Below are positions 32,860 to 38,762 of a DNA stretch of 64,000 bases, in pieces. The position numbers and the translations under genes were made by a program. Below the pieces are notes generated by a model. That model was not told where the DNA came from, did not search any database, and worked only from the letters and a program-made list of their open reading frames with translations. This DNA is from Granulicella sp. 5B5. GTDB lineage: Bacteria; Acidobacteriota; Terriglobia; Terriglobales; Acidobacteriaceae. Each line of letters begins with the position of its first letter. Position 1 is the stretch's first letter. Location of the stretch: assembly GCF_014083945.1 (NCBI RefSeq), contig NZ_CP046444.1:372001-436000 (forward strand), given 5' to 3'.

Positions 32860-32874
32860 TTGACTCAAAAGCGA

Positions 32875-32902
32875 GAAGGCCGCCTCGTCCAAGGCGGCCT
32901 TC
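32875..32902 (+). terminator. Terminator hairpin after hppA
   Basis: Arms GAAGGCCGCCT and AGGCGGCCTTC are perfect 11-base complements with a six-base loop, 15 bases after the hppA stop. The T tract is short. Confidence 0.75.
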
Positions 32903-32961
32903 TTGGGATGCAGCTTGGCAACCGCCTTACTCCGGTCTACGCTGTACTCAGGAGATTGCCC

Positions 32962-33219
32962 ATGACCACGGAAACCATCTCTCTCGCCTCGGAACTCGAA
33001 GCTGTTACTGCGCCTTTCATCGCCAGCGGCAAGTTTGCCAACGCCACCGAAGTCGTCCACGCCGCCATGGACGCCCTCCGCCACCAACTTGACGAGGCGG
33101 CCTATGACAAAGCGTGCGAACGAGCAGCTGAAGAAGGCGAAGCCAGCGGTCTGGTCGACTTCGACATCTTCGAAAGAGTTCGCGCCGAGCTTGGATTGAA
33201 ATCAAGGGTTCGCGTCTGA
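32962..33219 (+). CDS. parD: ParD-family antitoxin
   Basis: This 85-residue protein has the ParD/CC2985 plan: a short ribbon-helix-helix-like start (TISLASELEAVTAPFIASGK), then FANATEVVHAAMDALRHQ and an acidic C-terminal helix that would bind the toxin. A GGAG box lies eight bases before the ATG at 32962. Its TGA overlaps the expected parE ATG (TGATG). It would neutralise the toxin and repress the operon. Confidence 0.85.
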   Translation: MTTETISLASELEAVTAPFIASGKFANATEVVHAAMDALRHQLDEAAYDKACERAAEEGEASGLVDFDIFERVRAELGLKSRVRV

Positions 33220-33511
33220 TGCCGAGGTTCGGTACTCCAGCAGAGCATTGGCCGACCTAAGGGAAATAGGAACTTTCACCCTCGAAAAGTGGGGAATCCA
33301 GCAGGCAGAAATGTATCTCGACGAAATCGACGATACCTGTGTGTTCATCGCCAAGAACCTCCGGGTCGGGCGGGTCTACGATCCCTCGCATCCAACTTGG
33401 CGAAGATTCGAGCACAAGAGTCACGTCATTCTTTACTCCCAAAACCGGTCCGGCGTGACCATCCAGCTCATCCTGCACAAGAGCCGTCTGCTGCCCTCGA
33501 CTCCTCGCTGA
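33219..33511 (+). pseudogene. parE: ParE-family toxin gene with a one-base frameshift near the start
   Basis: The ATG at 33219 overlaps the parD stop, and its first codons read MPRF, a normal ParE start, but the frame stops soon after. One base later the other frame reads RYSSRALADLREIGTFTLEK and continues to 33511 as a full ParE body (WRRFEHKSHVILY, IQLILHKS). Inserting one base near 33231 restores a toxin of about 97 residues. As it stands the only in-frame start is a TTG at 33248 without a clear ribosome site, so the gene is probably inactive or the assembly has an error. Confidence 0.75.
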
Positions 33512-33586
33512 CAAACCTCCCCGTCCGCGCTATCCTTTCCCCGTCATCCAAATTCCACACTCTCCCGCCTCAAAGGAGACCCAGCC

Positions 33587-34702
33587 ATGTCATCCATCCG
33601 ACTACTCGTAGGAACCCGCAAAGGCGCCTTCGTGCTCACCTCCGACGGCGCGCGTAAAGACTGGACGATCTCACAGCCGCACTTCGCCGGTTGGGAGCTC
33701 TATCACCTCAAGGGCTCACCCGCCGACCCCAACCGTCTCTATGCCTCGCAGTCGTCCGGCTGGTTCGGCCAGCAGATCCAGCGCTCCGACGACGGCGGCC
33801 TCACCTGGAACCCGGTCGACAACAAGTTCGCCTACGATGGCACGGCCGGCACGCACCAGTGGTACGACGGCACGCCGCATCCATGGGAGTTCAAGCTCGT
33901 CTGGCACCTCGAGCCCTCGCTCACCGACCCCGACACCTGCTACGCGGGCGTCGAGGACGCGGCGCTCTTCCGCACCATTGACGGCGGCGCCTCATGGCAT
34001 GAGCTGTCCGGCCTGCGCACCAGCGCCACCGGCCCCAACTGGCAGCCCGGCGCGGGCGGGCTCTGCCTGCACACCATCATCCTCGACAAGACCAATCCCG
34101 AGCGCATGGTCATCGCCATCTCCGCGGCGGGCGCGTTCCGTACCGACGACGGCGCGAAGACCTGGAAGCCCATCAACAAGGGCCTCTACTCCAAGTACAT
34201 CCCCGACCCCACGGCGGAGGTCGGCCACTGCGTGCACCATGTCGCCATGCACCCGGCCAAGCCGCAGACGCTGTTCATGCAGAAGCACTGGGACGTGATG
34301 CGCTCGGACGACGCCGGTGACCAGTGGACCAAGATCAGCGGCAACCTGCCTACCGACTTCGGCTTCGTCATCGACGTGCACGCACACCAGCCGGAGACGG
34401 TCTACGTGGTGCCCATCAAGTCCGACGCTGAACACTTCCCTCTCGACGGTGAGCTGAAGGTCTACCGCAGCAAGTCCGGTGGCAACGAGTGGGAGCCGCT
34501 GACCAACGGCCTGCCACAGAAGGACTGCTATGTGAACGTGCTGCGCGATGCGATGTCCGTCGATCAACTCGACGACTGCGGCATCTACTTTGGCACCACC
34601 GGCGGCCAGGTCTACTGCTCGCCCGATGGTGGCGAAAGCTGGAGCGCGATTACGCACGATCTGCCCGCGGTGCTCTCAGTTGAAGCACAGACGCTGCCCT
34701 AA
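33587..34702 (+). CDS. BNR/sialidase-like repeat protein, probable beta-propeller
   Basis: The 371-residue protein has no signal peptide and several Asp-box-like repeats ([50 protein letters not shown]) spaced as in a propeller. This fold is used by sialidases, photosystem assembly factors and many unknown proteins. No glycosidase catalytic residues can be assigned. A MoaD/ThiS-like gene follows after three bases, and the pair looks like a unit. Confidence 0.85.
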
Positions 34703-34705
34703 GCT

Positions 34706-35011
34706 ATGCCTGCCGTCCGCGTCGACCTGCCCGCACCGCTGCGCCGCCTGGCCAGCATCTCCGGCCATGAGGTCACTCTCGACCTCGCGGCCGCGGTGAC
34801 GCTTGAGGCGGTAATCCGGGAGCTGGAAGTCCGCTACCCTGCCCTGCGCGGCGCCATCCTCGACCACCACACGCAGCAGCGCCGTCCGTTCCTACGCTTC
34901 TTCGCGTTGAACGAGGACATCTCGTTGCAGCCGCTCGATGCACCATTGCCTTCCGCCATCGCCGACGGCAGCGAACCGCTGCTCATCATCGCGGGGATTG
35001 CTGGCGGTTAG
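34706..35011 (+). CDS. MoaD/ThiS-family small sulfur-carrier-like protein
   Basis: This 101-residue protein fits the ubiquitin-like MoaD/ThiS fold and ends in the required Gly-Gly (LLIIAGIAGG), the site where a C-terminal thiocarboxylate is formed in this family. It follows the BNR-repeat gene after three bases and overlaps the convergent GNAT gene by four. No E1-like activator, cysteine desulfurase or MoaE lies nearby, so its acceptor is unknown. Confidence 0.85.
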   Translation: MPAVRVDLPAPLRRLASISGHEVTLDLAAAVTLEAVIRELEVRYPALRGAILDHHTQQRRPFLRFFALNEDISLQPLDAPLPSAIADGSEPLLIIAGIAGG

Positions 35012-35535
35012 ACGATCTCGCGCTCCAGCACGATGAAGTGCAGATCGTCGCGCAACGGCTTGCCCAGGCGCTCGTCGCCATACGGAAACGGCTCGGTATC
35101 GCCGGTCTTCGTATAACCGCGCCGCTCGTACCACGCAATCAGCCCCACGCGCACATGCAGCACCGTCATGCGGATGCGTGTGCCTCCGCGCTCGCTGGCG
35201 TAGCCTTCAGCGGCAGCGAGCAACGTGCGTCCAAGCTGGCGGTTCTGGCGGTCAGGACGCACCGTCAGCAGGCCGAGATACCAGACGCCGCCAGCCTCCG
35301 GGTTCAGCCACGCCGTACCCAGCAGCGGGCCATCCTCAGTATCGCGCCACACCAGCAGAACGCCGTTGGGCTTGGCCGCCAGCTCTTCCCGCAGCGACGA
35401 ATCGCTCAGGCGCTGCCCTTCGATAATTCCTTCTTCGACGTTCCAGCTCGCACCCGCGCCGGTGCCTCGATAGGCGAGGTTCGCCAGCGCAACCACCTCT
35501 GCAAAGTCCGCTTCCACTACAGGCCGCAAGATCAT
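35008..35535 (-). CDS. GNAT-family N-acetyltransferase
   Basis: The 175-residue product has the GNAT core: MILRPVVEADFAEVVALANL at the N-terminus, the strand GVWYLGLLTVRPDRQNRQLG with the acetyl-CoA loop, then RTLLAAAEGYASERGG and the late LIAWYERRGYTKTG. The substrate is unknown. Confidence 0.87.
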   Translation of the reverse strand: MILRPVVEADFAEVVALANLAYRGTGAGASWNVEEGIIEGQRLSDSSLREELAAKPNGVLLVWRDTEDGPLLGTAWLNPEAGGVWYLGLLTVRPDRQNRQLGRTLLAAAEGYASERGGTRIRMTVLHVRVGLIAWYERRGYTKTGDTEPFPYGDERLGKPLRDDLHFIVLEREIV

Positions 35536-37991: not shown

Positions 37992-38762
37992 TTACTTCGA
38001 GATGCCCTCGAGCGGTGAGCTGGCGGTGGCATAGAGCTTCTTCGGCATGCGTCCGGCGAGGAACGCTTCGCGACCGGCTTCGACGCCCTTCTTCATCGCT
38101 GAACTCATCAGCACTGGGTCCTTCGCAGCGGCCATTGCGGTGTTGAGTAGTACTCCGTCAAAGCCCATCTCCATTGCCAGAGCTGCGTCGCTCGCGGTGC
38201 CGAGGCCAGCATCGACGATCAGCGGAACCTCCGTGATGAGTTCGCGCATCATGCGCAAGGTATAGGTGTTCGCGATGCCGAGGCCCGTGCCGATAGGAGC
38301 GCCAAGAGGCATCACAGCCGCTGCACCAACGTCAATCAGACGCTTGGCGAAGACGATGTCATCTGTCGTATAAGGGAGGACGGTGAAGCCTTCCTTGACC
38401 AGCACACTGGTCGCTTCGACCGTCGCCTGCACGTCGGGATAGAGCGTCGCCTGGTCGCCGATCACTTCGATCTTGACCCAGTCGGAGAGCCCAACCTCGC
38501 GACCGAGGCGTGCCGCTCGGATCGCCTCTTCTGCGGTGTAGCAACCCGCTGTGTTCGGCAGCAGGAAGTACTTCTTGGGATCGATGAAGTCGAGCAAAGA
38601 TTCCTTACTTCGGTCGAGGTTCACTCGCCGCACTGCGACAGTGACCATCTCTGCGCCGGAGACTTCGATGGCGGCCTTCGTCTCAGCGCCATCCTTGTAC
38701 TTGCCTGTTCCAACAATCAACCGCGACCGAAACGTACGTCCTGCAATGACCAACTCGTCCAT
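37992..38762 (-). CDS. thiG: Thiazole synthase
   Basis: ThiG builds the thiazole ring of thiamine from deoxyxylulose phosphate, dehydroglycine and ThiS thiocarboxylate. The 256-residue TIM barrel contains [11 protein letters not shown], the Schiff-base Lys in [34 protein letters not shown] and [11 protein letters not shown]. The usual partners thiS, thiH or thiO and thiC are not adjacent. Upstream, a small structured unit ends in a terminator 28 bases before the start. Confidence 0.95.

Follow-up and report, generated by a model that had tools for sequence, protein, structure and literature searches.

Conserved pairing of a beta-propeller gene with a gene for a ubiquitin-like Gly-Gly protein in bacteria: a candidate carrier-acceptor pair

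INTRODUCTION

What might a beta-propeller protein do with a ubiquitin-like protein as its partner? The question is raised by two adjacent genes of Granulicella sp. 5B5, which lie in the 64,000-nucleotide stretch of contig NZ_CP046444.1 analyzed here (positions 372,001 to 436,000; the window). A first-pass annotation, made from the sequence alone, described a BNR-propeller gene followed three bases later by a MoaD/ThiS-like gene whose product ends in Gly-Gly, and proposed that the propeller is the partner or target of the small protein. It held that loss of the terminal Gly-Gly in homologues, or an absence of conserved pairing, would refute the idea. In this study, we examined the folds of both proteins, their conservation and linkage across genomes, and the activating enzymes that could serve the small protein.

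RESULTS

The two genes and their surroundings

Direct reading of the sequence bears out the close spacing and the Gly-Gly end: the propeller and small-protein open reading frames share a reading frame and lie at the coordinates given in Table 1, only the triplet GCT separates them, and the small protein closes with LLIIAGIAGG before a TAG stop. Most of the relatives found in genome_contigs have an ATGA stop/start overlap where the window pair has its 3-base spacer.

Table 1. Features of the propeller and small-protein genes, in window coordinates
Feature	Position	Strand	Basis or remark
Shine-Dalgarno-like AGGAGA	33574..33579	+	Before the propeller gene, 7 bases upstream; read directly
Asp-box (BNR) beta-propeller protein, seven-bladed, 371 aa, ATG start	33587..34702	+	Pfam, 3b7f, AF2, Foldseek
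Codon of conserved K12, predicted B-C loop of blade 1	33620..33622	+	Conservation
Codon of invariant H162	34070..34072	+	Conservation
Codon of invariant S179	34121..34123	+	Conservation
Codon of invariant H217	34235..34237	+	Conservation
Codons of invariant Q232 and H234 (QxH)	34280..34288	+	Conservation
Codon of invariant R320	34544..34546	+	Conservation
Spacer GCT, 3 bases, between the two genes	34703..34705	+	
Beta-grasp small protein (SAMP1/CysO/MoaD-type), 101 aa, Gly-Gly end	34706..35011	+	Sequence, AF2, Foldseek
C-terminal Gly-Gly codons GGC GGT	35003..35008	+	Read directly; conservation

Genes for a ParD-like antitoxin (32860-33219) and a ParE toxin (33248-33511), both on the plus strand, lie just 5' of the propeller gene. 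On the other side, a GNAT acetyltransferase gene (35008-35535, minus strand) is convergent with the small-protein gene, and the stop regions overlap by about 4 bases. Farther along the window, a thiazole-synthase-like gene, ThiG-type by eye (37992-38762, minus strand), stands without an adjoining thiS; the genome's ThiS is elsewhere (L053).

The propeller belongs to the 3b7f group

The BNR/Asp-box label of the upstream gene holds, as its product matched the Pfam families Sortilin-Vps10 (E 5e-13) and BNR (E 4e-7) above their cut-offs, and it contains six Asp-box-like hairpins. Its solved relative by sequence is 3b7f (E 1.1e-64, whole length), the protein Reut_B4987 of Ralstonia eutropha, which is listed as a protein of function not known (PMC2716378). 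An AlphaFold2 (AF2) model built from an alignment of relatives reached a pLDDT of 94.2 and a pTM of 0.92, and its best Foldseek match was again 3b7f (TM 0.88), with GH74, Ycf48, and sortilin more distant. The whole-length match in sequence and fold, together with the repeated Asp-boxes, places the propeller in the 3b7f group.

Plasmid records name this propeller an exo-alpha-sialidase. Asp-box repeats and the weaker matches to GH74 and sialidase propellers would fit a true exo-sialidase or glycosidase to which the small protein is an accessory. We found no FRIP-like sialidase motif in the protein and saw no signal peptide by eye, the chain opening with its first beta-strand at residue 3; the sialidase label in public records is therefore unsupported. 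The best match, 3b7f, is itself a protein without an assigned function, and the pairing of a secreted glycosidase with a Gly-Gly carrier would be unusual. We consider this reading very improbable.

Fifteen paired representatives of less than 62% identity share invariant T10, H162, S179, H217, Q232, H234, R239, and R320, and 14 of the 15 (93%) keep K12. All 16 propellers that lack a linked carrier also have K12, as well as H162, S179, H217, Q232, H234, and R320. By the strand order of the model, the B-C loops would contain K12, S179, Q232, and H234, and the starts of inner strands would include H162, H217, and R320. Judged from strand order and the usual placement of Asp-boxes on the opposite face, rather than from coordinates, the conserved residues would ring the mouth of the central channel.

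The small protein has a beta-grasp fold

The MoaD/ThiS-like label of the downstream gene stands on structural grounds. The Pfam ThiS profile does not carry it, with a score of 16.3 bits against a cut-off of 22.5, whereas the structure model and its fold matches do. AF2, again run on an alignment of relatives, predicted with confidence a beta-grasp fold whose tail is flexible (pLDDT 92.5), and CysO is the solved relative by sequence (E 0.005). The best solved Foldseek matches were SAMP1, CysO, and BexX-CysO, and the matches also included MoaD-type proteins and Urm1-Ahp1; the Foldseek probability was 1.00 against SAMP1, CysO, MoaD, and Urm1. By its modeled fold and not by profile, the small protein is thus a divergent member of the ThiS/MoaD/CysO superfamily. 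SAMP1 is its closest solved fold match, ahead of CysO, but the two scores are almost equal, so the fold cannot tell a protein tag from a sulfur carrier. A tblastn search of plasmids with the small protein alone gave no matches because the family is too divergent for a single-sequence search; a search by way of the propeller found the carrier beside most plasmid propellers.

Pairing is conserved across phyla

Co-occurrence of the two genes was exact in two surveys, although shared ancestry makes the counts less independent than they look. Of 41 relatives drawn from the same genus, order, and class, 22 have the propeller at more than 70% identity and the identical 22 have the small protein (E <1e-18); both close forms are absent from the remaining 19. 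Of 296 Actinomycetota, 19 have a close propeller (full length, at least 63% identity), and exactly those 19 have a close carrier (E <1e-25). Two more close actinomycetotal propellers are partial matches, apparently cut by contig ends.

A propeller scan of genome_contigs returned 80 loci at 72-80% identity, labeled Acidobacteriota, Planctomycetota, Gemmatimonadota, Chloroflexota, Actinomycetota, Vulcanimicrobiota, Verrucomicrobiota, Pseudomonadota, and others, with the proviso that many are metagenome bins whose phylum labels may be wrong. Named strains among them belong to Granulicella, Edaphobacter, Bryocella, Acidipila, Pseudonocardia acidicola, and Oscillochloris, and the pair is also present on complete replicons of Burkholderia, Cupriavidus, Mitsuaria, Pseudomonas, and Arthrobacter. 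In Cupriavidus metallidurans CH34, it is at L044. A near-full propeller was found at 160 loci, 6 of which end too early to be evaluated. The remaining 154, which are partly non-independent (some genomes are represented twice, and L008-L027 were recruited by the carrier, the others by the propeller), include 138 with a linked carrier. The carrier follows the propeller in 112, precedes it in 13, lies within about 2 kb in 8, and is fused to it in 5; the other 16 have none.

These arrangements form clades in a propeller tree, where the gene order switches between deep branches while linkage stays. The carrier comes first in a clade of Burkholderiales and Pseudomonas and in one actinomycetotal clade, inside which the five fusions nest, and the propeller comes first elsewhere. 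The 16 unlinked propellers, full pocket kept, fall mostly in Streptomyces-like and Rhodobacterales clades. Loci of this kind from Streptomyces-like and Rhodobacterales genomes are L168-L173, L175, L178, L038, and L040-L042.

The pairing is far beyond chance. The first-pass expectation that it would be conserved across phyla is borne out through changes of gene order and gene fusion, and we regard a functional pairing of propeller and carrier as nearly certain. In the 5-kb flanks of the 80 loci, a search for a third conserved gene found only variable genes of stress or detoxification type to recur: VOC/PhnB, HxlR, YCII, DoxX, and SRPBCC. These neighbors, along with recurrent sigma factors, hint at mobile stress or detoxification islands and name no product or pathway.

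Activating enzymes and other carriers

The first-pass remark that no activating enzyme is nearby is correct for the pair's neighborhood in the window. Elsewhere in the genome, a single contig of 3.93 Mb, there are two ThiF-family E1 genes. One, a ThiF-rhodanese gene of MoeZ type, is clustered with genes for a CysM-like PLP synthase, a JAMM protease, and a further carrier of the ThiS family (L051); the other is of MoeB type and stands alone. The carrier gene in the window is not linked to a CysM-like synthase or a JAMM protease, an arrangement that the same genome has at L051. The genome further encodes ThiS, a fused MoaD-MoaE, and a carrier linked to ThrC. At L055 (4239-5998; C1:3483238-3484997), a ThrC-like gene is directly followed by this carrier, which is of CysO type and has the tail CFADGD after its Gly-Gly; the tail of the carrier beside CysM and JAMM (L051 5755) reads ADCLCCCL. 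At L054 (4868-5590), a single protein combines MoaD and MoaE, as mycobacterial MoaX does.

Might the small protein be a redundant second CysO that only feeds cysteine or molybdopterin synthesis, with the propeller an unrelated neighbor? Its likeness to CysO in sequence and fold would suit this. The genome already has its CysM-JAMM-CysO-like cluster, its ThrC-linked carrier, and its MoaD-MoaE fusion, however, and the exact co-occurrence and the fusions oppose the view of an unrelated neighbor, which makes the idea hardly credible.

An E1-like gene, which the first-pass annotation had advised looking for, does adjoin the pair in two genomes of different phyla. In an acidobacteriotal locus (L059), a MoeZ-type gene comes immediately after the pair, in the same orientation, and a JAMM gene is about 5 kb off; in a gemmatimonadotal locus (L121), a MoeZ-type gene lies divergently upstream, adjoining the pair. 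Against roughly 0.1 immediate MoeZ neighbors expected by chance over about 110 loci, at 1-2 such genes per genome, two are suggestive but not proof. E1 linkage was absent from 32 further loci with flanks of about 4-9 kb, save for a weak match at a distance of 7 kb. A single MoeZ can serve more than one carrier, as it does MoaD and CysO (PMC3227635).

Several of these results bear on protein tagging, an idea raised by the first-pass annotation, in which the small protein would be a modifier like SAMP or Urm1 and the propeller an E3-like adaptor, a reader, or the main target. The closest solved fold match, SAMP1, is an archaeal modifier, Urm1-Ahp1 was matched as well, the genome has the JAMM protease needed for removal, and the conserved lysine K12 sits in a predicted loop of blade 1. 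We noticed no E2-like gene, nearly all loci have no dedicated E1 with the pair, and the near-equal SAMP1 and CysO scores leave the fold undiscriminating. On balance, tagging is unlikely.

The Gly-Gly tail and the fusions

Of 132 complete carriers, a count that leaves the fusions aside, 131 retain Gly-Gly: 111 end exactly there, and 20 continue beyond it, for example as GGC, GGCGGD, or GGQWV. The exception is a Nonomuraea carrier (L037). For this tally, L037 and L191 were reassigned on visual inspection, and one further carrier, cut by a contig end, stands outside the 132. Loss of the motif, which the first-pass annotation had thought might undo its proposal, is thus confined to one homologue. 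With cross-phylum linkage, fusion, and E1-like neighbors in two genomes, the proposal that the propeller is the partner of a Gly-Gly protein is well supported.

Five actinomycetotal open reading frames (L179, L181, L182, L187, and L189) run without a stop through carrier, short linker, and whole propeller, with an ISGG (or VSGG) motif now internal, between carrier and linker. By analogy, the tails after Gly-Gly and the internal Gly-Gly of the fusions recall carriers that need trimming by a protease. MoaX of Mycobacterium tuberculosis, a MoaD-MoaE fusion, is active only once cut after Gly-Gly (PMC4326299), and a JAMM enzyme cuts the MoaD-MoaE fusion in Deinococcus (PMC8832034).

The fusions could also be read as proteins that work uncut. 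The carrier would then form a non-covalent complex in which its tail, never activated, is a plug, regulator, or chaperone of a propeller enzyme. The internal Gly-Gly in the fused proteins, the single carrier without Gly-Gly, and a pocket that is equally conserved without a linked carrier all agree with such a complex. It leaves the retention of Gly-Gly in nearly every carrier and the two MoeZ-adjoining loci unexplained, and the known Gly-Gly cutting of fused MoaD-MoaE stands against it. We judge a purely non-covalent role unlikely.

DISCUSSION

The simplest reading of these results, by analogy with MoaD-MoaE and CysO-CysM, is that a carrier is encoded beside its acceptor. We propose that the two genes form a dedicated carrier-acceptor pair in which the small protein is a ubiquitin-like carrier of the CysO/SAMP type. 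Its Gly-Gly would be adenylated, and probably thiocarboxylated, by the MoeZ-type E1-rhodanese that the genome shares among carriers. The JAMM protease would first cut those carriers that have residues after Gly-Gly or are fused to the propeller. The propeller, presumably cytosolic, would be the cognate partner, and its pocket of K12, H162, S179, H217, Q232, H234, and R320 may take up the flexible tail, most likely as a sulfur donor. Some propellers offer precedents for such docking: the solved structures of Ycf48-D1 and sortilin, only distant fold relatives among the Foldseek matches, contain bound peptides, and the top face of kelch propellers binds C-terminal carboxylates (PMC11568203). The unlinked propellers with a full pocket argue against the mechanism, since the pocket may serve otherwise or use a carrier in trans, as do the rarity of E1 linkage and the Nonomuraea carrier that lacks Gly-Gly. 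Taken whole, from MoeZ activation to sulfur transfer, we give the mechanism a nearly even chance of being right.

Among known systems, the CysO/CysM/Mec+/MoeZ cysteine pathway of M. tuberculosis is similar in that a Gly-Gly beta-grasp carrier is encoded beside its acceptor and in that a MoeZ-type E1 and a JAMM protease are present in the genome. It differs in its acceptor, which is a PLP enzyme rather than a beta-propeller; moreover, E1 and JAMM genes are normally unlinked to our pair, and in the Granulicella genome a different gene, CysO-like, stands next to CysM. In the MoaD-MoaE molybdopterin synthase and MoaX too, the carrier lies next to its acceptor or is joined to it, and Gly-Gly marks the junction of the fusion, but the pair described here has no MoaE-like fold and the genome's own MoaD-MoaE fusion is elsewhere. 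In fold, the small protein is matched best by SAMP1 and Urm1, but the pair in the window is bacterial. Neither modifier is known to have a dedicated propeller partner. If bacteria did use the pair widely for tagging, the propeller would be a dedicated reader or E3-like adaptor holding the Gly-Gly tail in its mouth, much as the kelch-propeller E3s of eukaryotes bind C-terminal degrons; we think this quite unlikely.

The carrier of the pair resembles the small carriers that Iyer et al. cataloged in 2006 in their analysis of ThiS/MoaD neighborhoods, which are patchy, probably horizontally spread, and accompanied by JAB and E1-rhodanese genes (PMC1779556). Their paper makes no mention of an association with a propeller, BNR, or sialidase protein, and a 2007 survey of the beta-grasp fold does not mention the pair (PMC1949818). 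Although 3b7f is related to the propeller along its whole length in both sequence and fold, the literature that we found ties no carrier partner to it. The open literature on MoaD with BNR, propeller, or sialidase proteins, to which our search was confined (subscription-only papers were outside its scope), has nothing on the pair, and the genome annotation places the two genes side by side, uncommented. Among ubiquitin-like carrier systems, we rate the pair as an arrangement undescribed in the papers covered.

With a relative already crystallized (3b7f) and a likely activating enzyme at hand, the hypothesis is open to direct test. If it is true, a role would be assigned to a propeller family of many bacterial phyla, present in the lab-tractable Cupriavidus among others, that is now mislabeled exo-alpha-sialidase, and the propeller would join the short list of acceptors for ubiquitin-like sulfur carriers.
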